Made by a program: the position numbers and the translations under genes. A model generated the notes under the pieces. That model saw only the letters and a program-made list of their open reading frames with translations, had not been told where the DNA came from and did not search any database. Shown one piece after another: positions 369-31,270 of a stretch of 64,000 nt of DNA (positions are counted from its first letter, which is position 1; every line of letters starts with the position of its first letter). The stretch comes from a virus. The DNA lies in IMG/VR virus record IMGVR_UViG_3300007513_000004, positions 124,001 through 188,000 of that record, one strand, 5' to 3'.

Positions 369-1166
369 ATGAGGAAACTTATAAGCTACATTTTTTTACT
401 TTCAGTATTGATTTCTTTGGTCTATATTACTAAAGAAGTTATAAGTTTTTCAAAAAATATCATATCTTTAAAAGAGTATCAAACAGACGCTATAATAAAA
501 CAAGAAAAGATGCTACACCCAACCGTCAGGGTAATTAGCATGGAACGAACCTATGACAGCTCTGCCTCTGCAGACTCTGGCGATGTAGAGGTTGAGATTA
601 TACTGGCTACAGCCACCGGGTTTAGCATTCAATATGATGCAATAAATGATGTTTCTTTTGTAGTCACAAATGATCACTTCTGTAACTCAATAATGCCAAG
701 CTCATCTTTGGTAGTGGAAGACTATAATAAAAATTCATTAAATATTTCAGAAAATTATATAAGTTCAAAAATCTTATACACAGATGAAGGATTAGATCTT
801 TGCCTACTAGCAGCATATGGGTTTATAAAGCCGGCAATTATTGCAGATGTTGATTACACTCCAGAATTATTTGAAAAAGTTTTTGTAATCGGAGGACCGA
901 CCGGAAACTTTCCAATTATAATAGATACCTATATTTCTGGCTCAAGCGACAGAAGAAGCATAACGGTTGGAAACTTAGATGCTTCTGGAAATGATTTTTT
1001 GCTTATTTCAGAACAAATATTCCCAGGACATAGCGGAAGCCCTATCTTTAACCAAGATGGAGAGGTTATTGGAGTAATTTTTGCAGCATTAGAAACATAT
1101 GGTGGTTTAGCGATATCTCATAGAGATATATTCATGTTATTATTCTATTATCAAAATAGTCTCTAA
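369..1166 (+). CDS. Membrane-anchored trypsin-like serine protease
   Basis: This 265-residue protein starts with a hydrophobic segment (about residues 4-22) after two basic residues. That fits an uncleaved membrane anchor or a signal peptide. The rest has the chymotrypsin/HtrA-type triad in order: His in TNDHFC (family consensus TNAH), Asp in GLDLCLL, and Ser in GHSGSPIFN. There is no PDZ domain after it, so it is shorter than DegP/HtrA. It probably acts in the periplasm or outside the membrane on host or virion proteins. It is the only plus-strand gene and ends exactly one base before the convergent neighbour, so it may be controlled separately. The triad makes peptidase fold and activity likely; the substrate is unknown. 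Confidence 0.8.
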   Translation: MRKLISYIFLLSVLISLVYITKEVISFSKNIISLKEYQTDAIIKQEKMLHPTVRVISMERTYDSSASADSGDVEVEIILATATGFSIQYDAINDVSFVVTNDHFCNSIMPSSSLVVEDYNKNSLNISENYISSKILYTDEGLDLCLLAAYGFIKPAIIADVDYTPELFEKVFVIGGPTGNFPIIIDTYISGSSDRRSITVGNLDASGNDFLLISEQIFPGHSGSPIFNQDGEVIGVIFAALETYGGLAISHRDIFMLLFYYQNSL

Positions 1167-5700: not shown

Positions 5701-5737
5701 AAAAAAAATCTTAGAGCCCCAACATGGAGGTCCTAAG
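5701..5737 (-). terminator. Rho-independent terminator after the sigma factor gene
   Basis: Read on the minus strand, an 11-pair stem (one mismatch, two G-T pairs) runs from CTTAG at 5737 to CTAAG ending at 5710, with a short loop, followed at once by a run of eight T. The stem includes the stop codon of the sigma factor gene. Its position suggests that the sigma/diadenylate cyclase transcript ends here, before the reductase gene. Confidence 0.8.
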
Positions 5738-6308
5738 ATAATATGGTTCTAAGCTTGTTTAGGCTGCAGTTTCTGATTTGTCTTATACGTTCTGTAGAAA
5801 GGTTAAATTTCGTTGCTATTTCATTTAGTCTTTTTCCGATAACTAAGTTGTCAATAACAATGTCTTTTTCTCTGTCGGATAAAATATTATTTTCATCAAT
5901 AAACATCTTTTTAAATATTATTTTCATCTCTAACTCAACCTCTTTTTCGTTTAAAACATTACCAAAATCACAGCTGCCTAATTCCTTTTTAATACCAGAT
6001 TTTGCAATCGAAAATCGTTTAGAATTTGAATTGTAATCTCTAAGTTTTTTTGAAATATTCCATTGCGCCCATCTGAAGAAATCAAAGTTTTTTTGATAAT
6101 CATATGTTAAGATTGCTTCCCACAATCCAATATAGGCTTCCTGAAATAGGTCTTCTTGAGAAGATATATTTTTATATTTTTTCGCTCTAGACTCTGCAAA
6201 GAATTTTGTCTGCACAAAAATATCGTGCATCCAATCCTTTGTATTCTTTTCTTCGTTTACGATATATGTCATTTTTATATCAAGATTAGATAAATCGTAA
6301 TAACTCAT
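5733..6308 (-). CDS. Sigma-70-family RNA polymerase sigma factor
   Basis: The 191-residue product has sigma region 2 at about residues 50-92 (DLFQEAYIGLWEAI, then FDFFRWAQWNI) and region 4 at about 142-190, ending in a helix-turn-helix with LNEIATKFNLSTERIRQIR. Region 1.1 and a clear region 3 are missing, so it is a compact alternative factor. It would redirect host RNA polymerase to a set of phage (perhaps late) or host promoters. It begins 3 bases after the diadenylate cyclase stop with GAGGAT upstream, so the two are co-translated. The transcript ends in a terminator that overlaps its stop codon. Family is clear; the promoters it reads are unknown. Confidence 0.88.
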   Translation of the reverse strand: MSYYDLSNLDIKMTYIVNEEKNTKDWMHDIFVQTKFFAESRAKKYKNISSQEDLFQEAYIGLWEAILTYDYQKNFDFFRWAQWNISKKLRDYNSNSKRFSIAKSGIKKELGSCDFGNVLNEKEVELEMKIIFKKMFIDENNILSDREKDIVIDNLVIGKRLNEIATKFNLSTERIRQIRNCSLNKLRTILS

Positions 6309-6311
6309 TCT

Positions 6312-6872
6312 TTATTCATCCTCAGGGTTGTACTGATCCACAAACTCTCCGTCTTTCCAAGTCCTAACTATAGAGGTTTCTTCTGACAAAGTAAAGACGG
6401 CAATAACATCATCTCTGGTCGAAAAAGATGCAGCACTTATGTGTCTAGTCCCACATCCCTCTGGAACTTCTAATGCCGGATTGTCAACAAGCAGATATAC
6501 TCTACCTCCTATAATTTGACCATTTCTATTGATAACAATAGCTCCATCGGCATCTTCTCTAAACAAAGCTTCTACGCTCTTCTTAGAAGAGGTTGTTGAA
6601 ATATCTATATATTTTTGAATTGGATTAATCCCAATTTGTCGCATACCCGATACAAGATAATCTTTTGCTGTATCAAATACGCCAAACACAACCAGTATTC
6701 CTAACTTCTTTTGCCTATCTTTGTTTTCTTTAGATATTTCACACAATATATTGAATATCTTCTTTCCGACCTTCTGATGCTCTCTCGCAGCACTGAATTG
6801 GAAAGAAAAGTCAGTAGACGTAACCCTTTTGGGCGGCTCTACTGAAGTTGCCTGAATTTCTTCTTTCGACAT
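6312..6872 (-). CDS. Diadenylate cyclase (DAC / DisA_N domain), c-di-AMP synthase
   Basis: The 186-residue product carries the DAC signature: LGILVVF strand, DGA at 109-111, GTRH at 141-144 and SEE at 163-165, in the order and spacing of DisA/CdaA catalytic domains. The expected reaction is two ATP to c-di-AMP. No membrane helices (as in CdaA) or DNA-binding HhH domain (as in DisA) are present, so it is a soluble stand-alone domain. One change is notable: the family motif GTRHR is GTRHI here. The start at 6872 is chosen over an ATG seven codons upstream because GGAG lies 6 bases before it. It is preceded by its own AT-rich promoter spacer and followed by the sigma factor. Fold is convincing; activity needs testing. 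Confidence 0.85.
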   Translation of the reverse strand: MSKEEIQATSVEPPKRVTSTDFSFQFSAAREHQKVGKKIFNILCEISKENKDRQKKLGILVVFGVFDTAKDYLVSGMRQIGINPIQKYIDISTTSSKKSVEALFREDADGAIVINRNGQIIGGRVYLLVDNPALEVPEGCGTRHISAASFSTRDDVIAVFTLSEETSIVRTWKDGEFVDQYNPEDE

Positions 6873-6893
6873 GTACGACTCCATGGTTTCCAT

Positions 6894-6965
6894 ATGAGGT
6901 AAATTATACCAAGGATTTTAAATGTATAATTAAAAAAAATAAAAAAATTTAATTAAAAATAATTA
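6894..6965 (-). promoter_or_regulatory. Extended -10 promoter and AT-only spacer before the diadenylate cyclase
   Basis: On the minus strand an almost pure A/T stretch with two T-runs (7 and 8 T) follows the SpoVR-like stop and could help end that transcript. Next comes TTGG followed by TATAAT (6903-6908), a perfect extended -10 box (TGnTATAAT). No good -35 box is seen, which an extended -10 can do without. Transcription would start about 25 bases before the cyclase ATG at 6872. Confidence 0.5.
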
Positions 6966-8348
6966 TTAACTAAAGCCTAATTCATCATATGTGTAGTGAA
7001 TAATGCGGGTCTCTGAATCGACCGTTTTTAAGTTTATTGGCCCACCCCAAACATCGTGGACATATCCCATAACCATTTCTAAATGTTTGACATCCAAAGT
7101 TCCAACATCTACACTGGCATGCTCCAACTGTAAAATTCCATCTTCAACGCCAACAATACAAATGAGAGGGGCTCTATAATTATAGAGATCTTTTATTATT
7201 GTTTCTTTGATAAAATCCAACTCTGTTCCAATTACCTCAATGGCGTCAATTCCATTTGCAGCCTTTATTTGCTTAAAGGAAAAAAGCTTAAGATCTTTTG
7301 CCAAATCTTCTGTTAAATAATTTCTTATAAAAGAGATATCATCTTCATCTGCAACTATTTGATATATTTTCTGAAAACCATTAATTTCAGATTCTCCATT
7401 TTTATGCTTTTCGTCCCATTCTTCTCGTATTTTTGTAAATATTGAAAAACCTAAAAAGTAAGGGTTTATATTAAGATGATTCGATCCTGGTTGAACTACT
7501 TTTTCATGAATTTTACAAAAGTCAAGATATTCATGCTCTTCAACACAGCCTAGTTTTAACATAATCTCCGCATGAACAAAGCTTGCAAATCCTTCATTCA
7601 TTATCTTGGTCATATATTGAGGATAAAAATAATAAGACTCTTGTCTTATTATCTCTAAAATATCTTTCTGCCAAGGCTCCAAGACTCTCGAATAATTAAC
7701 CAAAAACCAAATAATATCAAACTCTTGAGACGGTGGAAAACCACTTTCTGCAGGAACCTCTTTGTATGAAAAATCATGTGTTCCAAAAACATCATCAAAT
7801 TCATCAAAACTTGTTTTTTTAAAATGTTTTTCGCCCTTTTTATACCTAGCTCTATTTGGCCCTTTATGCCAATCTATATGTTTGTCTAAAGCAAATCCGA
7901 TGTCCATAACTTTTTCAACTGTTTCAATTCCATACTTTTGTATATACTCCTCTATCCTCTGAGCCCTCTCGGCTGCATGATATACCATCTTGTTATCAGT
8001 TTGTTTGAATAAAAAATTATTTTTAAAAAAGTGAACATGACCAACGACATGCGCTGATACCATGGTGTTTGCTATGTCTGAATTTGTATCCAACAAGAAT
8101 GCATAAGATGGGTCGTTATTAAGTACAACTTCATAAATCTTTGAAAAACCCATTTCTCCTTGCATTTTTTGATATTCATATGATTGCCCATAACTCCAGT
8201 GTCTAGCACGAGTAGGGAGGCCATAACTGATTACTTCTAACATTGTTTCTTGCGGAACAACCTCATAATTTATTGGATAATAATCCAACTCCATATCATC
8301 TGCTATTTGTTCAATTTCTACAACTCTGTCTTTCAATAACTGATTCAC
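6966..8348 (-). CDS. SpoVR/YcgB-family protein
   Basis: The 460-residue product matches the SpoVR family along its length: N-terminal part with DMELDYYP and Tyr/Trp-rich RHWSYGQSYE, the His-rich SAHVVGHVHFFKNN segment, and NEGFASFVHAEIM in the middle. The family is linked to cortex formation in Bacillus spores and is present as YcgB in enterobacteria that do not sporulate; its biochemistry is not established. Length is close to the bacterial proteins. It starts with GTG at 8346-8348, with AGAGG 6 bases upstream, one base after the YhbH-like stop. It is the last gene of the PrkA-YhbH-SpoVR set, in the same order often seen in bacteria. It appears complete. Confidence 0.92.
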   Translation of the reverse strand: MNQLLKDRVVEIEQIADDMELDYYPINYEVVPQETMLEVISYGLPTRARHWSYGQSYEYQKMQGEMGFSKIYEVVLNNDPSYAFLLDTNSDIANTMVSAHVVGHVHFFKNNFLFKQTDNKMVYHAAERAQRIEEYIQKYGIETVEKVMDIGFALDKHIDWHKGPNRARYKKGEKHFKKTSFDEFDDVFGTHDFSYKEVPAESGFPPSQEFDIIWFLVNYSRVLEPWQKDILEIIRQESYYFYPQYMTKIMNEGFASFVHAEIMLKLGCVEEHEYLDFCKIHEKVVQPGSNHLNINPYFLGFSIFTKIREEWDEKHKNGESEINGFQKIYQIVADEDDISFIRNYLTEDLAKDLKLFSFKQIKAANGIDAIEVIGTELDFIKETIIKDLYNYRAPLICIVGVEDGILQLEHASVDVGTLDVKHLEMVMGYVHDVWGGPINLKTVDSETRIIHYTYDELGFS

Positions 8349-17964: not shown

Positions 17965-20438
17965 TACTTCCTCCTTCTCCTATCTATTATAGAAGCCCTA
18001 CCACTTTTTGACCCCTTTTGAAGTCTATTAAAGCCAGACTTTTTCTTTCTGATCTTTCTATTAACTTCTTCAGAAACGGCATTAACCTTATCCTCTCCCA
18101 AGTCTAAAGTCATAGCAACATCTCTATTCTTTTCTTTTTGAGAAGCTATTACCGCTTGTTGCTGACTTTCCTTCTTTAAATTATCAATCCTATCCCTAGG
18201 AAGCCCAAGGCCGGCGAACCAACTATATATCTTAATTGAATCCGAATCAGAATCTACATTGTAAACGCCCTGATAAATAGGAGCTCCGTTTGTTTGCTCT
18301 GAAATCATATGAAAACAATAATTTATGTTTATAGCAGGCAGCTTCTCCAGCACTTCTTTGGATCCGGCAACTATAACTCCGCCAGCTCTTGTTTGCGTTA
18401 AGTCAAAACCAGAAGCAAGCATGTTGGAGTTTAGGCTGTCAATCACAGCCTCTGCTAGTGCCGTTTCTTCCATATAATCTTCAACCTCCATAACCCCATA
18501 TATAGAACAATCTCCACAAGAAATAATCTTACCAAAGTCGCTTGGGTCTAAAGCTGTAAACCTGGAGGGCTTAGCCGTAAGGGTGTTGAAAATATGAAGA
18601 GGCTCTACAATTGCATTATTTGCAGCCTCCCAAAACTTAGATTGACTAAGGTTTGCATAAATCTGCTCAATTCTTGCATTATCAACAACAATTAAATTTG
18701 AAACAATATTATCTGCGGTAAGCCTTGCCAGCCTAGAGAGAGTCTCTATAGAATTCTTCTTAGATTGAGCATCCTCTGTAGCTTTCGGCAAAACATATAT
18801 AACCCCGACCGGAGTGCCCGTTTCAAATAACATTGGAATCAATGTATCAACAGAGCTTGATCCAGTACCTCCGCCACCAGAGACGGCCAAATATACCATA
18901 TGATTTCCTTCAATTACTCGATCAAACAAGGGCTGCATCAAATCAACACTTTCTGCAAAAATTTCACGACCTAAGTCCAAGTCCTTACCAGTGCCTCCAA
19001 GGCTTCCTTCTAACAAAAGCTTTTGGCTGCCTGGAACATCAATAAATTCAAGATCTTGAGCCGAAGTGTTAACCACAGCTACATCATATCCTTTTTGGTG
19101 AAATACCTCTGCCAGCCTAGACCCTGCTTGTCCAACGCCTATAATGGCCAGCTCTATACTGACACCTCTTGTGTTTACAACCACAGGCATATCTTCCTCC
19201 TTCTTCTTTTGCATTTTTTCACGCAACCTTTCAAGAACATCTTCTTCCTGTCCATCATCTTTGGCCTCAAGAAGGGGTTCTGTTAAATCCTCCAAAACTT
19301 GGTCCGCTTCACCCGCTCCAAAAGCAGCCATCAGCGCCTCATTGTCTTGGTCAATATTTTTTTGAGATTTTTCTTTTCGTTTAATCTCAATTTCTTTTAC
19401 TTCATTTTTACTCATTATAAAATCCTCATAATATCTATTAAGTTGCTCTAATATCTTTTTTCTATTTGTAGTCGCAAACGGAACATGTGTTTCATTTTTA
19501 TTATACGAAATTACTTCACAAAGGTATTCGGAATGTTTATTCATAGGGTCTGCATCAACTGTGATTATGTCACAGTTCATAGCTTTTGCCTCATAAAAGC
19601 TTAACCCAAGCCCCTCCCTGGTAGAGGGGGCGATAACACAGTGTGATTTATCATATAATTTTACTATATCCTCTCTCTTCAAAACATCATTTATTAGTAT
19701 TATATTCTTACACTTTTTTGCTATATTAGACTCGTCCTCAGTTAATCTCCCGCTAACCAACAATGTGGCATCTGATTTGGACATTCTGGAAAAATCTGAA
19801 AACGCTTCTAACGTTTGAATTGTATTTTTCTGATTAAAACCTGAATTTACAGGCCCAGGATGATAAAATGATAATTTTTCTAGATCACCCTTATTTGCCT
19901 TAGGGACAAATAAAGCTCTGTCTACATAATCCCAAGATACTTGTTTTTTATTTTTATATTTTCTAAATATATTATAAGAAGTTTCCGTAAGACACCAAAC
20001 TTGATCAAAAATACTATATGAATTACTTTGAACAAACCTTTTATTTATCCACTCAGGCATTGGTACGTCAATAATCTTTATTCCAGTTTTTGCCTTAATA
20101 TTCGAAACCCACTGCCCCTTCATCATAAAAGTTTCAAAAGAAATAATTATATCAATATCATTATCCCTCACAAGCCTTAAAAGCTGCTTCTCTACAGTTT
20201 TTTCCTTTGATAGAACATGAAAAGAAACATCAGATAATAAACTTTCATCATATGGTTCAGGATAATGACGCCTAAATGTGCCGCCAAGGGCCTCTTTCTT
20301 ATATTTTGCTTTTGAAACATAAGAAACTTCATTATTCTCACTAAGAATATCCCCAAGAGACTTTGCCAAATACCAGAGTCCAGATTCAGAAAGATATGTT
20401 TTTATCAAAATCTTTTTATTCTTTATTTTATTTATCAT
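17964..20438 (-). CDS. Fusion ORF: glycosyltransferase (GT-B) plus FtsZ/tubulin-like GTPase
   Basis: A single 824-codon frame holds two unrelated proteins. Residues 1-341 are a GT4-like glycosyltransferase (STREGLGLSFYEAKAMNC, the E-x7-E nucleotide-sugar site). Residues from about 430 are a tubulin/FtsZ-family GTPase: GVGQAG (T1 loop), the signature GGGGTGSSS at 521-529 (T4 loop), and ALDPSDFG, which keeps the catalytic D-x2-D of the T7 loop. The 342-417 stretch is charged and probably coiled or disordered; the C-terminal tail is very basic (DRRRRK). PhuZ-like filaments position DNA in jumbo phages, so a similar role is plausible. A good ribosome-binding site before Met342 suggests that a free GTPase is also made. 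Domain identities are firm; the fused product is uncertain. Confidence 0.85.
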   Translation of the reverse strand: MINKIKNKKILIKTYLSESGLWYLAKSLGDILSENNEVSYVSKAKYKKEALGGTFRRHYPEPYDESLLSDVSFHVLSKEKTVEKQLLRLVRDNDIDIIISFETFMMKGQWVSNIKAKTGIKIIDVPMPEWINKRFVQSNSYSIFDQVWCLTETSYNIFRKYKNKKQVSWDYVDRALFVPKANKGDLEKLSFYHPGPVNSGFNQKNTIQTLEAFSDFSRMSKSDATLLVSGRLTEDESNIAKKCKNIILINDVLKREDIVKLYDKSHCVIAPSTREGLGLSFYEAKAMNCDIITVDADPMNKHSEYLCEVISYNKNETHVPFATTNRKKILEQLNRYYEDFIMSKNEVKEIEIKRKEKSQKNIDQDNEALMAAFGAGEADQVLEDLTEPLLEAKDDGQEEDVLERLREKMQKKKEEDMPVVVNTRGVSIELAIIGVGQAGSRLAEVFHQKGYDVAVVNTSAQDLEFIDVPGSQKLLLEGSLGGTGKDLDLGREIFAESVDLMQPLFDRVIEGNHMVYLAVSGGGGTGSSSVDTLIPMLFETGTPVGVIYVLPKATEDAQSKKNSIETLSRLARLTADNIVSNLIVVDNARIEQIYANLSQSKFWEAANNAIVEPLHIFNTLTAKPSRFTALDPSDFGKIISCGDCSIYGVMEVEDYMEETALAEAVIDSLNSNMLASGFDLTQTRAGGVIVAGSKEVLEKLPAININYCFHMISEQTNGAPIYQGVYNVDSDSDSIKIYSWFAGLGLPRDRIDNLKKESQQQAVIASQKEKNRDVAMTLDLGEDKVNAVSEEVNRKIRKKKSGFNRLQKGSKSGRASIIDRRRRK
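19413..19427 (-). promoter_or_regulatory. Internal ribosome-binding site and ATG for the FtsZ/tubulin-like part
   Basis: GAGGAT (19422-19427) stands 6 bases before an in-frame ATG (19413-19415), which is codon 342 of the fusion ORF. The ATG falls exactly between the end of the glycosyltransferase domain and the start of the charged linker. This would give a separate GTPase of 483 residues from the same message. Confidence 0.7.
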
Positions 20439-21144
20439 ATACTAGTTTGCCACCAAGCCTTTCTTTTGAGGCCTTTTTTATATCTTCTATATTTTGTTCG
20501 AGCTCCTTCTTTCGATCCTTCTGCTGAGTCAAAGAGCCTCCTCTTGGAATTACAGAATAATAATACAAAATTTGATGAATATATTCTATAGGATATTGCT
20601 CAGAAATCCTCAGCCACATGTCGTAGTCTTCTGCAATCCAAAGATCTTCATTAAAAAGACCAACGTCATTTAAAACAGCTCTCTTAATTGTGGTAGATCC
20701 TGATGCTACAAAATTTTGAGTCATAAGAGCAGAATGGTCTATCCTTATAGGTCTTTTATAAAAAGGCTTTTTAAGACGAACTCTATTTAATAAAATTTGA
20801 TAATTTCCACAAGTCATGCCTATATCTGGCCTTTCTTTAAACGCATCTATAGATAATTTTAACTTGTGCCTATTCATTATATCATCTGCATCCAAAAGAC
20901 TGACAAGATCTCCGCTTGTTGCTCTAATGCCAACATTTCTTGACGCTCCAGGCCCAATGTTCTTTTCATTTCTTATATATTTAACAGTAGGAAATCTCCT
21001 CAATAACTTTTTAACATCCTCTGTTGAATTATCATCAACAACTGTAACTGTATACTTTTTATATTCCTGAGAAAAGCAGCTTCTAATTGCTTGCGTAAGA
21101 AATTTTCCAGGATTATAGGCTGGAATGATAATGTCAACCAACAT
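20428..21144 (-). CDS. Family 2 glycosyltransferase (GT-A)
   Basis: The 238-residue product has the standard GT2 start VDIIIPAYNPG, then VVDDNSTED and the DxD metal site in LLDADD near residue 86, followed by EDYDMWLRI near the acceptor side. It transfers a sugar from a nucleotide-sugar donor to a growing glycan or protein. It overlaps both neighbours by 11 bases, so it belongs to the glycan cluster transcript that continues into the glycosyltransferase-GTPase fusion. Donor and acceptor cannot be read from sequence. Confidence 0.88.
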   Translation of the reverse strand: MLVDIIIPAYNPGKFLTQAIRSCFSQEYKKYTVTVVDDNSTEDVKKLLRRFPTVKYIRNEKNIGPGASRNVGIRATSGDLVSLLDADDIMNRHKLKLSIDAFKERPDIGMTCGNYQILLNRVRLKKPFYKRPIRIDHSALMTQNFVASGSTTIKRAVLNDVGLFNEDLWIAEDYDMWLRISEQYPIEYIHQILYYYSVIPRGGSLTQQKDRKKELEQNIEDIKKASKERLGGKLVYDK

Positions 21145-22090
21145 CTTTCAAAATCCTTAAATACTGCTCTACAATCAACCTAGGATTAAAACTTTCAAGC
21201 ATATACTGTCTAGCTCCTAAAGATAAATCTTTTCTTAATTCAGAATTTTCCATTATTTCCGATATTGCTTCACAATATGAGTCTACGTCTCTACTTATAA
21301 TAATCCCTGTTCTATAATTCTCTCCATGCAGATAAACTTGTGGATGAGTAACAGAGGGGACTCCGGCAGACCACTGTTCCATAAGGGCGGTTCCTTTGGT
21401 CTCGCTCAAAGAAGTGCAAATATAAAGATAGGCCTTCTTCGCCTCTTCAATATGAGTTTTGTAGTTATATGGTCTACCATCTCCCAAAAATAAGAACTCA
21501 TATTGTTTTAAATTATTTTTTATTTTTTTAGCAAACTCAATATCTTTAACCATATGCCGCGAATTTCCTTTCCACAAAATGTACTTGCCATACCTATCTG
21601 GCGGAGACCACAAATCAACATCTGGGCCAACCATAAAGCTCTCAAGCTTGTCTATCGGCAGTGCGTGCTTATTGGATATAAGATATCTTAACCTATCATT
21701 AACAGTTAATATCTTTTGATATTCTATTTTCTTCAAAAAAGCCTTCTCTTGCTTATACTCTACTGTATCAAGCAAGTTTGGACCTAAAATAACTGGCTTT
21801 TTATAAGTATTTGCAAGCTGAATTATTGTTAAAAACGTATTTACCAAGCCACTCCAGCAGTGGAATGCCTTGCACTCTCTTATATCATTTAATAAATCTG
21901 TTGCATGTCTTGTTGTTTTTAGTTGAACATTTGGAATGTCCGAAAAAGACTCCAAATGTGTATAAATAGACAATTGTACTTTTGGCAAATATTTAGAAAC
22001 AAATTTTGCAAAATTAAGCAAGTCCATACCAGGACCATTTACAATGCCATTAGATATACCTATATTGAATGCTAGTATAACAACTTTCAT
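21134..22090 (-). CDS. Family 4 glycosyltransferase (GT-B)
   Basis: The 318-residue product has GT-B features: the N-terminal domain with KVVILAFNIG and GIVNGPGMD, and a C-terminal nucleotide-sugar site with SLSETKGTALMEQWSAGVPSV, where the E-x7-E pattern is partly kept. AAGGA lies 6 bases before the ATG. A 55-base AT-rich gap separates it from the LysM/HExxH gene upstream. It would add one sugar in the cluster's glycan. The donor is unknown. Confidence 0.82.
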   Translation of the reverse strand: MKVVILAFNIGISNGIVNGPGMDLLNFAKFVSKYLPKVQLSIYTHLESFSDIPNVQLKTTRHATDLLNDIRECKAFHCWSGLVNTFLTIIQLANTYKKPVILGPNLLDTVEYKQEKAFLKKIEYQKILTVNDRLRYLISNKHALPIDKLESFMVGPDVDLWSPPDRYGKYILWKGNSRHMVKDIEFAKKIKNNLKQYEFLFLGDGRPYNYKTHIEEAKKAYLYICTSLSETKGTALMEQWSAGVPSVTHPQVYLHGENYRTGIIISRDVDSYCEAISEIMENSELRKDLSLGARQYMLESFNPRLIVEQYLRILKDVG

Positions 22091-22145
22091 AAGCTTCCTT
22101 GTGACATTTTACTGCCAAAATTGCTTAAAATTTTATATTTTTTGA

Positions 22146-23630
22146 TTATACTTGTTCGTGCGGTGATACGGCTTCTTCTTCGATATTCTCTGCCGGTTCA
22201 GCCGCCGTCTTGGACCCCTTTATGTTTGTATCCCAATGGTAATACATCCTGCTCAAAAACTTCTTATATCTCTCTTGTTTTAGTCTTTCTAAAGTTTTTC
22301 CATAAATAGGTGTTTTTATAATCTTATCTACCGGCCTTACTTCTAATTGAGCCTTATAGTCGCCAGCCAAAAATGACATACTCAACATTTCATCAAAACT
22401 TATATTCGAAATATCTTCTGGACTCATGTCCTTTGTAGCTTCTTCTATTTGAAAAATAATCTGCTCATAATGCGCCTTGCCCTCTTCTCTCGTTAGCAAG
22501 TAAAACCCTCTATCGTACGAATACATTTCGTTATAACTTGGTATTAATTTTACTTCACTTTCCGGATCAAGCTCCATATTTATAAAAGAACTTTTAGCAT
22601 ACTGTGGAATATCATATATCTGCTGATAAGTTGGTGCAGGACCAGTGCCTGTTAATTCTGAAAATAAATTATTATAATTAACCACAAGCAGTCTCTCAAC
22701 ATCTACATTTTCTCTTTTCGCTATAGACTTTAACGTATCTCCCTCTCTAGACAGAGATTGAGAATCTGCTCTGTTTGGAATCATAAGCTCAAGACCTTGG
22801 GGCAAAACTTTTGTTTTAATAGATCTATAAAGTGATTCAATAGCAGAGGTGTCTCCAGACAAAAGGCCGCTTAATGCATTCATAAATCTCTCCGGAGAAA
22901 CACCCACGGATGGCTCTTGAATTATTGTATCCATATTTTGAGCAAGAAAACTTCGCGAATCAACCTGAAGCTTTCTGGCAATATCTTCAATAGATTCTCC
23001 GTTTGGATTAAGCACCTCATATCTTTCACCAACTCTGGCCGGCATTTTCATAACATCTTTGACGTGAACCTCTTCATGTCTTAAGGTTTCTATAAAATAA
23101 GCTTTTACTGCCCTTGTAAATAATCCAAACTCCTTATTAAAATCTCCCATTATCTCAGGAAGCTTTGACATATTATTGCCTATCTCTCTCATTGCCGCTT
23201 CTTGCAAACTAATATTTGGATTAAAACCAAGCACCACCACCTTTTCAGACTTATCTTTGTCCCAACCAGTTTGGCCTGGAGGAAGCCCGGGATTGTCTGA
23301 AAATAATATCATATATATTCCGGTTATATCCTTTCCGCTAACGTCCTGTCTTTGCCTAACTGTTTTTGCAGCCAAAGCATTTGCCACATCCTGCCCTACC
23401 GAAACCCTTCCAGTTATAATCCCAAGAACATCCAAGGGTGCAATTCCATGAGCCAACATTTTTGCCCCAATTTCTCCCAAAAGCTCTTCGACTATATCAA
23501 CAATCTCTGCCCGATTAACCGGCAGAGGTCTGGACATGGCTAACTTTAGATTTTCAGCAACAAGTATGGACTCAACCAGAAAGCCTTTGTTGGACAACCA
23601 CTTTTGTAATTTTTCTATTTTGTTTATCAT
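22146..23630 (-). CDS. Large protein with HExxH motif and two LysM-like segments
   Basis: The 494-residue product combines a metalloprotease-type zinc motif (HEEVH at 185-189, within a predicted helix) with two LysM-like segments, about 203-232 (GESIEDIARKLQVD) and 283-312 (GDTLKSIAKRENVD). LysM binds peptidoglycan or chitin-like glycans; HExxH often marks zincin proteases. A third zinc ligand cannot be assigned by eye, so activity is unproven. There is no signal peptide. It lies between glycosyltransferase and cupin genes in the sugar cluster, but its domains point more to the virion or the cell wall. It could be a virion-associated wall or scaffold-processing protein. Confidence 0.5.
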   Translation of the reverse strand: MINKIEKLQKWLSNKGFLVESILVAENLKLAMSRPLPVNRAEIVDIVEELLGEIGAKMLAHGIAPLDVLGIITGRVSVGQDVANALAAKTVRQRQDVSGKDITGIYMILFSDNPGLPPGQTGWDKDKSEKVVVLGFNPNISLQEAAMREIGNNMSKLPEIMGDFNKEFGLFTRAVKAYFIETLRHEEVHVKDVMKMPARVGERYEVLNPNGESIEDIARKLQVDSRSFLAQNMDTIIQEPSVGVSPERFMNALSGLLSGDTSAIESLYRSIKTKVLPQGLELMIPNRADSQSLSREGDTLKSIAKRENVDVERLLVVNYNNLFSELTGTGPAPTYQQIYDIPQYAKSSFINMELDPESEVKLIPSYNEMYSYDRGFYLLTREEGKAHYEQIIFQIEEATKDMSPEDISNISFDEMLSMSFLAGDYKAQLEVRPVDKIIKTPIYGKTLERLKQERYKKFLSRMYYHWDTNIKGSKTAAEPAENIEEEAVSPHEQV

Positions 23631-23668
23631 GACTATAATTACTCATATTGGACAAAATTAATAATAGA

Positions 23669-24043
23669 TCAGCGCCCATAGTCATCCTCTATCCTTATAA
23701 CATCATCCAGCTGCTTTGTGCTTACCTCAAACAACTCAACATCTTCATCTTTTGCTATAAACCTATGAGTATAAAATGGTGGAATATGAAATGTCATTCC
23801 TTCCTTTAATATAATCGTTCGCCTAGAACCATCAAACCCCTCTGCGGCATGTCCTCCTGTTTCTAGGTATAGAATTCCAGATTTAACAAAAATAGTCTCC
23901 TCTTTTTCTTCATGATATTGAAAAGACAACCTGTGGCCTGCTTTGATAAACAATATTTTGCCCACATAGCCATTTTCGCAAGAAGACTTTGCCCAAATTA
24001 TCTCATGGCCCCAAGGCTTTTCTATTTTTTTACAATATTCCAT
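23669..24043 (-). CDS. Cupin, mannose-6-phosphate isomerase type II-like
   Basis: The 124-residue single cupin starts with KPWGHE, the usual signature of the type II phosphomannose isomerase domain. Metal-binding residues follow in FQYHEEKEE and in FYTHRFIAKD. The full bacterial enzymes are fused to a GDP-mannose pyrophosphorylase; this one is a stand-alone cupin. It may supply or modify a mannose- or hexose-phosphate for the GDP-mannose 4,6-dehydratase encoded downstream in window coordinates (25685-26665). The start lacks a clear ribosome-binding site, 7 bases after the sulfotransferase stop. Confidence 0.8.
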   Translation of the reverse strand: MEYCKKIEKPWGHEIIWAKSSCENGYVGKILFIKAGHRLSFQYHEEKEETIFVKSGILYLETGGHAAEGFDGSRRTIILKEGMTFHIPPFYTHRFIAKDEDVELFEVSTKQLDDVIRIEDDYGR

Positions 24044-24050
24044 TATATGT

Positions 24051-24914
24051 TTACAGGCCTAACTCTTTAATAACTTTTTTTGTTAATTCTGGATATATTT
24101 CTGATGATAAATCAAGCATTTCTTTATTCTTGAAAATATCTTTAAATTGTTTTGCACACATAAACCACATCCATCTATTTAGAACATTCATCTCTTGGGC
24201 TTTACCATCTTTTGTCATAACATCAAAACTGCTTCCATACCCATTGCCAGGAACCTTGTTTAGCCCTCTGTCTGAAAACTTTAATCCTAAATTATTTATT
24301 ATATTTTTACGATATTTTTTATCTTTAAACCATAAATTATAATTAATCAAAACTTTATCATTGCCTAAATAATTAGTTTTTCCAAGATACTCTTTGGCAT
24401 ATTCACTCCATCTTTTTACAGCACCTTTGTCGAACCATGAAATATCACTATTTTCATTAGTTTTATGTGAAAAAGAAAGATTTTTTTTACCAACCTCTTT
24501 TCTCAAAGTATTAGACCTATGAAAAAACCTAAGTCTGCTTGAAAACAAATTAAATGGATCTCTTAATATTAAAATTGTGTTTTCTTTTCTCGGAGGAACA
24601 ATATACAATGTTTTTTTATATTTTGCTTTTATATTTTTTATATTTTCTATAGAAATATCTTCCATATTATATATATACCAAGGAAAAATCTCAATCGGCT
24701 TTTTACCCTTTGCGTTATGCCATTCTCCCCTATCTTCAAAAGCCTTTTTTCCGCTAAAACATAATATATCATTATGAAAATAGACAGGCTCTTCAACCTG
24801 TTGTATAATCCAATTAATTATACCATGCTGCCCAGAACGCATCATTGCGCAAATTTCAAGTTGATTATTGATTATTTTGCATTTCTTTTTATAGTTGTTA
24901 ACCTTTGTAGCCAT
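24051..24914 (-). CDS. Sulfotransferase-like protein
   Basis: The 287-residue product has a PAPS-binding loop near residue 26 (AMMRSGQHGIINW) and a second PAPS site (LRDPFNLFSSRL). This is the pair that marks sulfotransferases. It would move sulfate from PAPS to a sugar or other hydroxyl. The ATG at 24912-24914 is used: it follows the upstream stop by one base, whereas a TTG start would overlap that gene. It is one of three sulfotransferase genes within 3.3 kb. No PAPS synthesis gene is visible in the window, so the host must supply PAPS. Confidence 0.75.
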   Translation of the reverse strand: MATKVNNYKKKCKIINNQLEICAMMRSGQHGIINWIIQQVEEPVYFHNDILCFSGKKAFEDRGEWHNAKGKKPIEIFPWYIYNMEDISIENIKNIKAKYKKTLYIVPPRKENTILILRDPFNLFSSRLRFFHRSNTLRKEVGKKNLSFSHKTNENSDISWFDKGAVKRWSEYAKEYLGKTNYLGNDKVLINYNLWFKDKKYRKNIINNLGLKFSDRGLNKVPGNGYGSSFDVMTKDGKAQEMNVLNRWMWFMCAKQFKDIFKNKEMLDLSSEIYPELTKKVIKELGL

Positions 24915-24915
24915 A

Positions 24916-25722
24916 TTACATTCTTTTGTAACCAAAATAATCTAACTCTTTTTGATATTTAGATAAAATATTATTTATACGTCTAATATCATTTGTTCCT
25001 AAATTTTTAATTTGATCTGGATTTAGATTCTTTATTGGCATTTCCTTTTTTCCATGCAAAGAGTGATGACCAGAAAGCTTGCCTTCAAAGGAAAAGTCAT
25101 TTAACTCTGGCAACAAAGTTGTTATCTTTGTTTTTACCATCTCTTGATTATCGCATAAATCTGAATATTTAACCCATATAACATTATCTAAAATTTTTAA
25201 ATTTCTCATTTGAAACTTCATTGATTCGCCCCAATGAGTTGCACAACGCTCGATTTTATAGCCCTGCCTTCGTCTGAGACCTTCAGATAGGGCATATGGA
25301 TTCCTTACCATAACGATAAAATATGAATTTAGAAAATACTTTTGCAGCAACTCTGCTCTAATTACATTTGGAGGTGATTTCTCCAATAAAATCATATTTT
25401 TTAAAGGCCTTCCGGCTGACCGCTCCCACGCTTTAAACCATTTTTGTTTAATTATTTTCCAATTATAATTTTTATCGTTACTAATCAAATTAGGCTTTTC
25501 CGTCCAAAGCCCTAATACGCCGTAGTTTCTCGGATGAGGTATGGCCTTTCCGGCATGATTATGCCCCTCGGAAGAAGTGGCGTGCTTATTTGTCTTTGGC
25601 AGCGGCACTACTGATTTGCAGTTACTTAAATAATGATGCAATAACGTAGATCCGCCATTATTCATACAAACAACAAAAAGATGCTTACAATCTTTCTTGC
25701 AATTCTCGTAAGTCATTTTCAT
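24916..25722 (-). CDS. Sulfotransferase-family protein
   Basis: The 268-residue product has a PAPS-type loop in CMNNGGSTLLHHYL and a second site in VRNPYALSEGLRRR, which is the usual pattern of P-loop sulfotransferases. Its overall resemblance to the neighbouring sulfotransferases is low, so they likely have different acceptors. AAGGA lies 6 bases before the ATG, which lies inside the end of the GDP-mannose dehydratase gene (38-base overlap). The large overlap suggests translational coupling. Confidence 0.72.
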   Translation of the reverse strand: MKMTYENCKKDCKHLFVVCMNNGGSTLLHHYLSNCKSVVPLPKTNKHATSSEGHNHAGKAIPHPRNYGVLGLWTEKPNLISNDKNYNWKIIKQKWFKAWERSAGRPLKNMILLEKSPPNVIRAELLQKYFLNSYFIVMVRNPYALSEGLRRRQGYKIERCATHWGESMKFQMRNLKILDNVIWVKYSDLCDNQEMVKTKITTLLPELNDFSFEGKLSGHHSLHGKKEMPIKNLNPDQIKNLGTNDIRRINNILSKYQKELDYFGYKRM

Positions 25723-26665
25723 ACATTTCCTTTAAAAGCATTTTCCAACTATACTCAGGCTTCCACCCAAGATCTCTCATAATCTTAGAAGGATTTCCCA
25801 ATAAGAATGGAACTTCAGATGGTCTCATAAATCTTTCATCAACTTCATAAACATCTTCAAAATTCAATTCAGCAAGAGAGCAAGCGTATCTGAACATCTC
25901 CTCTATTGTCGCTCCTGTTCCGGTCGCTACAACATAATCACTTGGAAACTCTTGCTGCAGCATTAAATACATTGCTTTACAATAGTCCTTCGAATGCCCC
26001 TCATCTCTAAACGGAGACAAATTCCCCATTTGCAAAGAATCTTGCAGACCAAGCTTAACGGAGGCTACACCTCTAGTGATTTTTCTTGTTGCAAAATCAA
26101 CGCCCCTCCTAGGACTGCTGTGATTATGTAAAATTCCATTGCAGGCAAATAGATTATATGCTGTACGATAATTTCTAACTGCCCAATATGCAGCTAACTT
26201 AGCAATGGCATATGGAGATCTAGGATTGAATGTAGAACTTTCATCATATCCCTCCTTTGGACAACCTACTCCGCCAAAAAGCTCAGACGTTGACGCCTGA
26301 TAAAACCTTGTATATGGCGAAATCTGTCTAATTGATTCAAGCTGACCTATAACCGCTCTTGCGTCAATATCAAATGTCGAAAGAGGCTCCTTAAAGGACT
26401 GGCCCACATGAGACATTGCCGCCAAATTATACCACTCATGCGGCCTATAGGAGTGAAGAACTCTGGACACAAGGGTTGTATCACATATATCTCCTTCAAT
26501 TAATTTAAAATTTTCTAAATCAATCAAATGACTTATGTTTCCATATTTCCTATTGGCGCTAAGCCTTCTGGTTATTCCAACTACAGAGTATTCTTTGTTT
26601 AATAATAACTCTGCTAAATATGAACCATCCTGGCCGGCAACGCCTGTTATAACAGCTGTTAACAT
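25685..26665 (-). CDS. gmd: GDP-mannose 4,6-dehydratase
   Basis: The 326-residue product has the Rossmann motif GVAGQDGSYLAE at its start, ASTSELFG, and the short-chain dehydrogenase YxxxK in PYAIAK, all typical of GDP-mannose 4,6-dehydratase. It turns GDP-mannose into GDP-4-keto-6-deoxymannose, precursor of fucose, rhamnose or perosamine. The start at 26665 has AGGAG 5 bases upstream; an upstream start would add 15 residues without a homologous part. No GDP-fucose synthase is adjacent. It lies among sulfotransferases in the glycan cluster. Confidence 0.9.
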   Translation of the reverse strand: MLTAVITGVAGQDGSYLAELLLNKEYSVVGITRRLSANRKYGNISHLIDLENFKLIEGDICDTTLVSRVLHSYRPHEWYNLAAMSHVGQSFKEPLSTFDIDARAVIGQLESIRQISPYTRFYQASTSELFGGVGCPKEGYDESSTFNPRSPYAIAKLAAYWAVRNYRTAYNLFACNGILHNHSSPRRGVDFATRKITRGVASVKLGLQDSLQMGNLSPFRDEGHSKDYCKAMYLMLQQEFPSDYVVATGTGATIEEMFRYACSLAELNFEDVYEVDERFMRPSEVPFLLGNPSKIMRDLGWKPEYSWKMLLKEMYENDLRELQERL

Positions 26666-26719
26666 AATATCTCCTAACCATATTTTACTTATATAGTATA
26701 CTTTTTCCAATTTGCATAA

Positions 26720-27349
26720 TTATTTCTTAACTATATTTTCACCAAACTTATATCCAAAATAATCTATATCTTTTTTATACCTTCTAGCAACAATCCTCCT
26801 AAGATCATCATCATAATAAAAAGTATAATCTTTTCTTTCTTTTAAATACGAATGTTCTTCAAGCCTATGATTCCAATCATTTTCAAGAACAGTATTTGCA
26901 CCCAACATGTTTGCAACATCTTTCCATTGCTCATTCAATGTTTCATATCTAATTATATAATCCATAACTATTTTATTATTTATACTTATAGCATTTAATT
27001 GCGGAACAGCATTTGCTTTCACAGAGTTCCTCCATACCGGGTTTTCCCTCCATCTTGTCAGCCAGGTCTTAAAGTCAACAGTCTTTCCATCCTTATGAAA
27101 CCAGGGAAAAAAATAATTTGAAACGACAAGGTCCCATGGATTTCTGACAATTGAAAATTTTAAATATTCATCCCAACGTTCTTTTCCAAACTTTTCTTTG
27201 GCCTCTTTTGCCACAATATGCTTCGGACCGATAGCCGAACTCCACTTAATCTTTTCATTCAGGCCGTAGTCAAGAAGCGCTTTCTCTACTGACGTACCCC
27301 CTGTTCGCTCAATATGAATAAAAATACACTTATATTTATCAGAAATCAT
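26720..27349 (-). CDS. Sulfotransferase, Sulfotransfer_2 type
   Basis: The 209-residue product carries the PAPS loop in IHIERTGGTSVEKAL and the second site in SIVRNPWDLVVSNYFF. This is the pattern of carbohydrate sulfotransferases (Sulfotransfer_2). It probably sulfates the glycan assembled by the surrounding genes. It overlaps the upstream epimerase by 4 bases (ATGA). A 54-base gap with a good ribosome-binding site separates it from the GDP-mannose dehydratase. It is the clearest of the three sulfotransferases. Confidence 0.82.
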   Translation of the reverse strand: MISDKYKCIFIHIERTGGTSVEKALLDYGLNEKIKWSSAIGPKHIVAKEAKEKFGKERWDEYLKFSIVRNPWDLVVSNYFFPWFHKDGKTVDFKTWLTRWRENPVWRNSVKANAVPQLNAISINNKIVMDYIIRYETLNEQWKDVANMLGANTVLENDWNHRLEEHSYLKERKDYTFYYDDDLRRIVARRYKKDIDYFGYKFGENIVKK

Positions 27350-28284
27350 TTATCTTCTTTCAAATGCCATCGAACCGTATTTTCGAGACCCTCTTCAAAA
27401 GGGGTTTTTATGCTATAATCTAAAATATTTTTTATCTTCGTTATATCTGCTTGAGACTTATCAACGTCTCCCTGTCTTTTGTCTTCATATCTTGGCGGCA
27501 ATGTGCCTACTATCTTGGCAAGATTATTTATTGCAATCTTCTGCCCGCACCCAACATTAAAAGATTCTCCATTTAATTTCTTATTATAATTTGCAGCCAA
27601 AATATTTGCAGAAACAACATTTTCAACAAAGCAAAAATCTCTGGTTTGCTCCCCATCACCGTATATGGTAGGGGCTGTGTTGTTTTTCAGATTATCACAA
27701 AAGGCCGAGATAACCGCCGCATAAGCAGAATCTGCACGCTGTCTTGGTCCAAAAACATTAAAATATCTTAAACAAACCGTGTCGAGATCATAAGCCTCGG
27801 AAAACATCTTGCAATATTCTTCTCCAATTTTTTTCTGCAGAGCGTAAGGCGACCTTGGGTTAAGAAGCACGCTCTCTGGGGTCGGCAAAATATCAGATCC
27901 TCCATATACAGAAGAAGATGAGGAAAAAATAACTCTTTTACATTTATACTTTTGAGCAATATTTAATATATTTACTGTACCATTAACATTTATATCATTT
28001 GATATAACAGGCTCTTTTATAGACGGAACAACGCCAGAGATTGCCGCCAGATGAAACACTGCGTCGGGTCTATGCTCGCGAAAAACCGTATCAATCTTTT
28101 CTGACCTTATATCATAATATTTTGGAATAAAATTATCATAAGAAATATGCAAATCCATTGTAGATTGCAAGCCTGAGCGCATATTGTCAATGCCAACAAC
28201 TTTGCAGCCCTCTTTTAAAAGACCCTCTGTTAAGTGCCCTCCTATAAAGCCTGCAGACCCTGTGACAATTGCCGTCTTTATCAT
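27346..28284 (-). CDS. NAD-dependent nucleotide-sugar epimerase/dehydratase
   Basis: The 312-residue short-chain dehydrogenase has GSAGFIGGHL (NAD site), SSSSVYGG and YALQK (catalytic YxxxK), with ARLRYFN-like CLRYFNVFGPRQR. It most resembles UDP-glucose/GlcNAc 4-epimerases (GalE/WbpP group), which turn glucose or GlcNAc forms into galacto forms; a uronate epimerase is also possible. It overlaps both neighbours by 4 bases (ATGA), placing it in one transcript with a UDP-sugar dehydrogenase and a sulfotransferase. The substrate is inferred only. Confidence 0.87.
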   Translation of the reverse strand: MIKTAIVTGSAGFIGGHLTEGLLKEGCKVVGIDNMRSGLQSTMDLHISYDNFIPKYYDIRSEKIDTVFREHRPDAVFHLAAISGVVPSIKEPVISNDINVNGTVNILNIAQKYKCKRVIFSSSSSVYGGSDILPTPESVLLNPRSPYALQKKIGEEYCKMFSEAYDLDTVCLRYFNVFGPRQRADSAYAAVISAFCDNLKNNTAPTIYGDGEQTRDFCFVENVVSANILAANYNKKLNGESFNVGCGQKIAINNLAKIVGTLPPRYEDKRQGDVDKSQADITKIKNILDYSIKTPFEEGLENTVRWHLKEDK

Positions 28285-29069
28285 TCTTCGTCCCTAATCT
28301 TGTTTCTCTCAAGAATAGATGCGTTTAAAACCGCATTAAGAGAATTGCTTTTTTTCATCATATTATTTAATGCATTTGTATCTTTTGGAAAACATGCTCC
28401 GCCATAAGCCAACCTGCCATCAGGGCCTGGCACGGCTACGTGATGAGGGGCAATCCAACCATTTTTTAACATTAACGCTTTAATATTCTCAAAACTTAAT
28501 CCGTTTGATTCACATAACAAATAAAACTCATTAAATATCATAACTTTTTGAGCATAAAAAGAATTTGCAAACAACTTCATAGCTTCAGATTCATCAGATG
28601 TGCAAATAGATATTAATGCATCCGGATAAAGCCTTTTGTACAATAAAACCAAAGAGTCAAAAGCCGAAGAGTCTTCCGTCTTTCCAAGAACTATGTGTTT
28701 TTGATTATGAAAGTCCCGAAAAGCTGTGCGCTCTGTCAAAAATTCTGGATTATGAGCAATGTTAAGATTATACTTTTCAGCGAATCTTTTTGTCACCCCA
28801 GGCTCAACCGTGGACTTGATAACGCATAATCCATTATAATTTAATTCGCTTAACTTTTCAAGACTCTCACTTATAGCGCTCAAATCAAAACCAGAACTAT
28901 CTACATAAGGAGTTGGAAGGCATAAAAAAACAATACCAGAGTCTAAAACGTCTTTGATATTACCTATTTTTTGAAACTTATCGTAAACAATGGTCTCTAT
29001 TCCTTTTTCTTTAAAGGATCTATGTAACGCCCTTCCAACGAACCCTTTTCCTATCTGAGATATGCGCAT
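28281..29069 (-). CDS. Short UDP-glucose/GDP-mannose dehydrogenase-like protein
   Basis: The 262-residue product has an NAD-binding N-terminal (GKGFVGRALH), NPEFLTE and the catalytic Cys in GGACFPKD (C226) of the UDP-glucose/GDP-mannose dehydrogenase family, which makes uronic acids. It lacks the C-terminal third (UDP-binding domain) of the usual 380-450-residue enzyme. The end is not broken: the stop overlaps the next start as ATGA, so the short form seems real. It may still act, perhaps on a different substrate, or need a partner. The neighbouring epimerase fits a uronic-acid step. Confidence 0.82.
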   Translation of the reverse strand: MRISQIGKGFVGRALHRSFKEKGIETIVYDKFQKIGNIKDVLDSGIVFLCLPTPYVDSSGFDLSAISESLEKLSELNYNGLCVIKSTVEPGVTKRFAEKYNLNIAHNPEFLTERTAFRDFHNQKHIVLGKTEDSSAFDSLVLLYKRLYPDALISICTSDESEAMKLFANSFYAQKVMIFNEFYLLCESNGLSFENIKALMLKNGWIAPHHVAVPGPDGRLAYGGACFPKDTNALNNMMKKSNSLNAVLNASILERNKIRDEE

Positions 29070-29085
29070 AACCTTCTAAGCATCC

Positions 29086-30261
29086 TTATATTAAATCAAA
29101 ATTTTTCAACATTTCAACCTCAGAAACAGACATGGGAGAAACATTCTTTTCTATATTCTCTAATATTTTATTTTTAAATCTTTTTGGCAAATTCATCTCT
29201 TCCTCATAAGCTTGAGAATAATATCCGTATTCAAAAGAAACATCAACATTAGGATACATATTTGTTACAGTAGAAATTTTACGCTTTTGCGCTATAGCCA
29301 CCATCGAAGCTCCCATTTTTAACGGCTTTTTATTAATGATTTTTTTAACAATCGGAGAAACTGTAATTCTTCCACCATGATAAGCATTTTTTCTAAAGCA
29401 CTTATAACACATACCGCAAGAACCCTTTTCTCGCCTCAAACAAGATTCGGCCGGAATAGAGTTATTCTTACAAATAATTGTTGTAACTACCTCCGAACAT
29501 GCGCCGACCGCCCAAAACATAGGCAATCCGGCGGCTTTAAACAGCCTCTTGTGATAATTATAATACCAAGAATTGGCAAAATCACGATACTTGTGTCCTT
29601 TCCACAAATATGTACTATCTAAAATTTGGCCAGTTGTTACATGTGAAAGCCCTAAATGGTCGGCTAACAAAATGGCTGGCAAACATACAACATAATCAGT
29701 TAAAAACCCAGACATTAAAGGCTTCCCGTCTTTCTTTAGTTTTGATCTTAATAATTCAATATTAGTTTCTATAGAAAATCCTTTATAGCCACGCTCTTTA
29801 AACCACTCTAAGCATCTAAGCTGATTTCCATGCTTTAACTTAGTCTTAAATCCATCTCTTTTCAAATAACATAATACAACATCATCTTTTTGCATCAATA
29901 TTGCTGCCGCAGCAGAATCAACACCTCCAGAAAAAGCTAATCCCACCTTACCATCCTCAATAGGCTTTCGTTCTATCCAGTTTATTGCCTTAAACAATTC
30001 ATCTCCACTTTCTGTGATAAATGGAAGAAAAATTAAACTTTCAGCCAAACGCAATAAACTATCCGAAACCTCATCAAGCCTCCAGTCTTTTGGCATCTTA
30101 AAATAATATGTACCATAAAAAGAGGTCAAATAAAGATGACGACCCTTTTGCGACCATTGTATGTTTAAATCATTAAATTTCATTTTTTTATTATCCAATT
30201 CTGTTTTAAAATAATATGTTGCATAATCTTGGTGAATTATAGATTTGGTTTCTTCTTTCAT
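29086..30261 (-). CDS. PP-loop ATPase with QueC-like Cys cluster
   Basis: The 391-residue product has the PP-loop SGGVDSAAA (111-119) of N-type ATP pyrophosphatases. These enzymes activate a carboxyl or similar group with ATP and then add sulfur or nitrogen. A C-x7-C-x2-C-x2-C cluster at 274-288 (ending CGMCYKC) matches the zinc site of QueC, which makes 7-cyano-7-deazaguanine. The first 100 residues are not QueC-like. It could modify a sugar (amidation) or a nucleobase. It overlaps the upstream glycosyltransferase by 4 bases (ATGA), which favours a glycan role. Family level is firm, reaction is unknown. Confidence 0.75.
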   Translation of the reverse strand: MKEETKSIIHQDYATYYFKTELDNKKMKFNDLNIQWSQKGRHLYLTSFYGTYYFKMPKDWRLDEVSDSLLRLAESLIFLPFITESGDELFKAINWIERKPIEDGKVGLAFSGGVDSAAAAILMQKDDVVLCYLKRDGFKTKLKHGNQLRCLEWFKERGYKGFSIETNIELLRSKLKKDGKPLMSGFLTDYVVCLPAILLADHLGLSHVTTGQILDSTYLWKGHKYRDFANSWYYNYHKRLFKAAGLPMFWAVGACSEVVTTIICKNNSIPAESCLRREKGSCGMCYKCFRKNAYHGGRITVSPIVKKIINKKPLKMGASMVAIAQKRKISTVTNMYPNVDVSFEYGYYSQAYEEEMNLPKRFKNKILENIEKNVSPMSVSEVEMLKNFDLI

Positions 30262-31211: not shown

Positions 31212-31270
31212 ATTTTAATATTTTTTATTGCTCTTATTCTAAATTATATTTATTAAATAATATAAAGAAC

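Follow-up and report, generated by a model that had tools for sequence, protein, structure and literature searches.

The window analysed here, a 64,000-nucleotide stretch of a 223,402-base virus record, carries on its minus strand a gene for a stand-alone diadenylate cyclase (DAC) domain protein, preceded by genes for SpoVR, YeaH and PrkA-type proteins and followed by a sigma-70 family gene (Table 1). A baseplate wedge protein, a DnaB-like helicase, a DNA helicase, RNR and PhoH are encoded on the same record, and its relatives measure 317-395 kb; the source genome is a tailed jumbo phage, represented by a 223 kb fragment. The sigma-70 protein encoded next to DAC suggests a bacterial host.

Table 1 Features of the window and their positions
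Position	Strand	Feature	Basis
369..1166	+	trypsin-like serine protease	
5733..6308	-	sigma-70 family protein, 3 nt past DAC stop	Pfam Sigma70_r2/r4
6312..6872	-	stand-alone DAC domain protein, 186 aa	Pfam PF02457; PDB DACs by sequence and fold
6378..6386	-	SEE motif, S163-E165	alignment
6438..6452	-	GTRHI motif, G141-I145, instead of canonical GTRHR	RHI in 12/12 phage homologues
6495..6497	-	Y126	aligned to adenine-stacking Y192 of S. aureus DacA; in 12/12 homologues
6540..6548	-	DGA motif, D109-A111; contacts ribose in solved DACs	aligned to D176/G177, S. aureus DacA
6879..6882	-	GGAG ribosome-binding site, 6 nt before ATG 6872	sequence
6903..6912	-	extended -10-like element TTGGTATAAT, between SpoVR and DAC (93-nt gap)	exact pattern match
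6966..8348	-	SpoVR family protein, immediately upstream of DAC	Pfam PF04293, 363 bits
8350..9543	-	YeaH/YhbH (DUF444, VWA-type) protein	Pfam PF04285, 293 bits
9545..11464	-	PrkA-type AAA+ serine protein kinase	Pfam PF08298, 376 bits; PF06798, 236 bits
17964..20438	-	824-aa glycosyltransferase-tubulin/FtsZ fusion	
20428..37624	-	block of glycosyltransferase genes	
42243..52202	-	single 3319-aa ORF	

The DAC gene and its conserved neighbourhood

The protein matched the Pfam DAC family with 51.2 bits (E = 1.1e-13) against a gathering cut-off of 27 bits and is thus no chance match; six divergent phage relatives scored 44-50 bits, also above the cut-off. The longest ORF at the locus spans 6312-6893 on the minus strand. 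We prefer the ATG at 6872, because GGAG lies 6 nt upstream, because relatives begin at the equivalent position and because the ATG of the 6893 start would be only ~10 nt past the -10 element. The earlier note on this DNA, which named no strand, had already placed the ORF and this start, and the good ribosome-binding site it described is the GGAG at 6882-6879. Among phage homologues dN was 0.10-0.45, while dS either could not be computed or was 1.7 or more, so that synonymous sites are close to saturated or past it; these values indicate that the gene is under purifying selection.

The order PrkA, YeaH, SpoVR, DAC was common to the window and its relatives. The 14 loci examined from a PrkA-based scan, independent of the DAC, all had the PrkA-YeaH-SpoVR triad; once duplicates were collapsed, with L030 standing in for the truncated L086, 13 distinct lineages remained. 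DAC came directly after SpoVR in 12 of these 13; the other lineage, L084, has the triad without DAC and a cupin-like gene (L084:13476-13844) directly after SpoVR instead. This conserved order, missed by the earlier note, is the most informative context of the gene. The best NCBIfam model for the YeaH gene was YhbH, at 381 bits and under its cut-off of 468. Sigma-70 homologues were detected after DAC in L002, L025, L030, L083 and L092 and none was detected in L003, L006 and L012, so that the sigma factor was rejected as a fixed partner of DAC; because it is found in only some relatives, the linkage of DAC to SpoVR is the stronger one.

The extended -10-like element TTGGTATAAT occurs twice in the window by pattern count, and the copy at 6912-6903 is the sole intergenic one. 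A consensus scan detected no good -35 partner for it, and promoter-like matches overall were at chance level in that scan. The gap between SpoVR and DAC is at most 21 nt, or an overlap, in 8/12 homologues and 54-93 nt in the remaining four. Of the claim that the gene has its own extended -10 promoter, the exact and intergenic match therefore stands, but not a complete promoter with a good -35, nor one general among homologues; an own promoter is plausible in the window, and the conserved arrangement is read-through from SpoVR into DAC.

Several relatives have inserted sequence within SpoVR or next to it, and it leaves the gene order unbroken. SpoVR ORFs reach 828-884 aa in L003, L006, L012 and L030 through long in-frame insertions, and the RNR region of L084 likewise contains long insertions within the reading frame; in both cases homing-endonuclease-like ORFs lie nearby, which suggests inteins or mobile elements. 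Elsewhere in the window, the trypsin-like protease gene lies on the strand opposite nearly everything else; it is conserved in L002 (42% identity) and has weak PADLOC similarity to RT-protease systems. The 824-aa ORF is an unusual fusion of a group-1 glycosyltransferase (residues ~201-339) and a tubulin/FtsZ GTPase domain (430-594). The adjoining block holds several glycosyltransferases and a nucleotide-sugar epimerase, which suggests a surface- or DNA-glycosylation cluster, and the 3319-aa ORF adjoins further ORFs of great length close to the baseplate gene.

We considered whether the DAC could be of host origin, on a contig that is bacterial or misassembled, as PrkA, YeaH and SpoVR belong to gene families of cellular organisms and phage databases do contain some contaminating contigs with CdaA. 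However, the same order recurs on numerous independent viral contigs, where genes for phage helicase, PhoH and RNR flank it, and a baseplate protein is encoded on the same record. A scan of the cellular genome collection with the phage alignment returned no DAC relative, and a scan with a core alignment returned only CdaA-type loci of 29-40% identity. The repeated phage context already refutes this explanation, and we give it practically no credence. In agreement with the earlier description of the gene as phage-encoded, which the baseplate wedge protein, the DnaB-like helicase and PhoH/RNR also uphold, homologues were found on IMG/VR viral contigs of up to 335 kb when searched through DAC and up to 395 kb when searched through PrkA.

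No family for the phage DAC was found in PHROGs, and no match to it was found by tblastn in INPHARED. In INPHARED 23 records match CdaA; the three examined (L093, L094 and L095; MT835502, OR846611 and OR846790) are phage-labelled, yet are pieces of bacterial chromosomes that carry CdaA-CdaR, joined by GlmM in L094. These 'UNVERIFIED' contigs have the chromosomal arrangement and were rejected as further phage DACs. In the open-licence literature searched, no relevant report of a phage-encoded diadenylate cyclase was found, which is no proof of absence; there seems to be no earlier description of a virus-encoded c-di-AMP synthase. The DAC family found here is carried by very large phages known from metagenomes alone.

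Fold, ligand site and the RHI motif

The top PDB matches to the phage DAC by sequence were diadenylate cyclases. A first AlphaFold2 model built from six phage sequences was weak (pLDDT 61), and its 50 best PDB matches were still all DACs. Adding CdaA-type sequences to the alignment (25 sequences in total) raised the mean pLDDT from 61 to 72, with 84-90 in the core and residues 75-87 poorly predicted; this second model thus leans on the homology later confirmed with it. With it, Foldseek returned DACs for 50/50 best PDB matches, led by S. aureus DacA with ApCpp (6gyx, E 6.6e-8), and with moderate TM-scores of 0.55-0.58 by query length and 0.55-0.70 for CdaA-type domains. No match below E 1e-3 was found in the BFVD viral structure library. 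The DAC domain that the earlier note had proposed is therefore backed by Pfam, by PDB sequence matches and by Foldseek, and the structure prediction it had suggested as a check gave a model that matches the DAC fold.

The phage DAC is ~20-30% identical to characterised DACs, and the DGA, GTRH and SEE motifs reported for it are all present. In S. aureus DacA bound to ApCpp, D176 and G177 contact the ribose, T207 the phosphates, and Y192 stacks on the adenine (PMC6368335); the aligned residues of the phage DAC, D109, G110, T142 and Y126, are all identical. DGA is found in the window protein and in 11/12 homologues, with DGS in L079; SEE is changed to SEQ in one homologue, L081. The GTRH core (6441-6452, minus strand) is invariant among the phage homologues.

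All 12 distinct phage homologues keep the RH of the RHR motif and carry Ile at its third position; CdaA-type loci have RHR in 31/31 cases. The invariant RHI is a real departure from the canonical motif, overlooked by the earlier note. RHR is not a strict defining feature of the DAC family, as archaeal members vary at its third position: a Haladaptatus DacZ has RHH, and stand-alone haloarchaeal DACs have RHM in 2/3 and KHL in the third. The DacZ family appears to tolerate change at this position, the residue of the H. volcanii enzyme being taken from the Haladaptatus member.

The altered motif is compatible with a degenerate DAC that binds ATP or c-di-AMP without cyclising it and acts as a sensor or sponge, regulating PrkA-YeaH-SpoVR or blunting host signalling. 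The Ile found in every phage homologue, the DGS and SEQ variants and the loss of activity of M. tuberculosis DacA upon replacement of RHR by AAA, in which all three residues were replaced (PMC3328451), would fit this explanation. Every reported ligand contact is kept, however, and the GTRH core does not vary, as it would be expected to under relaxed catalysis. DacZ-type cyclases have RHH and a characterised member is active, H. volcanii DacZ making c-di-AMP in vitro in a Mn-dependent manner (PMC6741144). We therefore consider a degenerate DAC unlikely. Even less probable is an active cyclase with another product or substrate preference, such as another cyclic or linear dinucleotide. Membership of a divergent subfamily, the low identity to characterised DACs and the altered motif position would leave room for it, but the adenine-stacking Tyr and the ribose and phosphate contacts are as in adenylate-specific DACs, and the known cyclases of the DAC fold that the searched resources name make c-di-AMP.

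Collectively, these data place the phage protein almost certainly in the c-di-AMP-making fold family, and its fold and ligand-site residues indicate that it probably makes c-di-AMP. That it does so and is also co-expressed with the PrkA-YeaH-SpoVR cassette is likely as well.

A proposed role for c-di-AMP in the infected cell

In the proposed mechanism, the gene product would be a compact soluble diadenylate cyclase, of which two or more protomers would bring a pair of DAC sites opposite each other to convert two ATP, with a divalent metal, to c-di-AMP inside the infected cell. Face-to-face protomers that condense two ATP are known for the DAC family (PMC8573169), and the oligomeric state and the product of the phage enzyme are predicted accordingly. 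Its gene would be the fourth in a cassette from which phage PrkA, YeaH and SpoVR are made together with the enzyme, and c-di-AMP would thus appear whenever this stress/sporulation-type module is expressed.

Depending on how much of it is present, c-di-AMP is essential to many microbes or toxic to them. Overexpression of DacZ is lethal in H. volcanii (PMC6741144). The most likely role of the phage enzyme would be to set the c-di-AMP level of the infected cell to the phage's own advantage, tuning the balance of K+ and osmolytes and the homeostasis of the envelope while the large phage grows; c-di-AMP would act through host receptors or else signal to the PrkA-YeaH-SpoVR module. We propose only tentatively that this advantage comes from K+, osmotic or envelope control, an idea drawn from general c-di-AMP biology. 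The earlier note had also invoked potassium and osmotic control; neither a TrkA_C protein nor a c-di-AMP riboswitch (RF00379) was found in nine phage records, and Rfam gave no match within the window. Any c-di-AMP receptor would therefore have to come from the host or be a phage protein that escaped recognition.

A DHH phosphoesterase in the three largest relatives was considered as a dedicated c-di-AMP phosphodiesterase and rejected as evidence for a module, since the same family is present in 126 INPHARED phages and the gene lies far from DAC. In the large relatives L070, L071 and L072, a PurA/PurZ-like adenylosuccinate synthetase adjoins the DHH phosphoesterase; it is closer to PurA (197 bits) than to PurZ (51 bits) in NCBIfam, and these phages may have a modified-base (2-aminoadenine) genome.

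Some bacterial antiphage systems signal via cyclic dinucleotides, and the enzyme or its product could block such a nucleotide-signalled (CBASS-like) system rather than tune physiology. The absence of DAC from the triad-bearing Thermus phages and from L084 is as expected of an accessory gene. Its neighbours, on the other hand, are PrkA, YeaH, SpoVR, RNR and PhoH, with no counter-defence genes among them, and we know of no mechanism by which synthesis of an agonist inhibits a sensor. PADLOC gave no match for DAC, which gives no backing to the antiphage signalling raised previously and led us to reject DAC as a member of a defence system. We regard counter-defence as quite improbable.

The broader form of the proposed role, in which PrkA, YeaH, SpoVR and DAC form one second-messenger unit and phage c-di-AMP regulates the PrkA-SpoVR pathway together with the osmotic and envelope state, is speculative and, in our estimate, rather doubtful. 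If true, it would link c-di-AMP to a widespread and mechanistically obscure bacterial stress operon. The fixed place of DAC behind PrkA-YeaH-SpoVR would be a genetic hint to what these stress genes are wired to, and an enzyme of this kind, conserved in phages, would be a case of viruses taking direct hold of the c-di-AMP messenger.

Comparison with known phages and diadenylate cyclases

Thermus phages (phiYS40, TMA, phiLo, MN1 and Lalka) resemble the window in carrying PrkA with SpoVR and/or vWA-type neighbours; their PrkA proteins differ, being just 32-36% identical, and DAC was not found in the Thermus phage records tested. The Ralstonia jumbo phage RsoM2USA also has PrkA and SpoVR (PMC8504454).

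Among NCBIfam models the phage DAC ranked DacZ first (E 7.7e-16, residues 24-185), followed by CdaS, CdaA and DisA, and fell far below the cut-offs of all four. DisA has the DAC domain fold and the DGA, GTRH and SEE motifs in common with the phage DAC, but adds a linker and helix-hairpin-helix DNA-binding domains, whereas the phage protein is a bare DAC domain of 186 aa that scored 18.5 bits against the DisA cut-off of 201 (NF010009). CdaA/DacA and CdaM, which include the best solved-structure matches, have the DAC fold, DGA, GTRH, SEE and the adenine-stacking Tyr in common with it. CdaA differs in its N-terminal membrane helices, its CdaR/GlmM operon and its RHR; the phage DAC is predicted to be soluble, has RHI and no N-terminal extension, neighbours SpoVR and a sigma factor, and reached 19 bits against the CdaA cut-off of 188.8 (TIGR00159).

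The stand-alone haloarchaeal DACs L064 and L066 are similar to the phage DAC in size (185 aa), have no extra domain, carry RHM, STR and LSEE motifs and are 42% identical to it over 79 core residues; their N-terminal half could not be aligned to it by BLASTP. Unlike the phage gene, they are cellular megaplasmid genes linked to ion antiporters and not to PrkA-YeaH-SpoVR. L064, L065 and L066 are all bare DACs on haloarchaeal megaplasmids beside cation:proton antiporters, one of them with TrkA neighbours, and these neighbourhoods are a cellular link between bare DACs and ion transport.

Similarly to the phage DAC, archaeal DacZ has a residue other than His before DGA and one other than Arg at the third RHR position. 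The two are 26% identical, the full-length DacZ model (NF041371) gave the phage protein 58.2 bits against a cut-off of 430, and the phage gene adjoins a bacterial-type sigma factor. DacZ also has an N-terminal DACZ_N domain (PF19294), which is found in the L063 DacZ and absent from the phage DAC. DacZ being nearest but DACZ_N absent, the phage protein is therefore assigned to a separate DAC subfamily, which by score appears nearest to the archaeal DACs.
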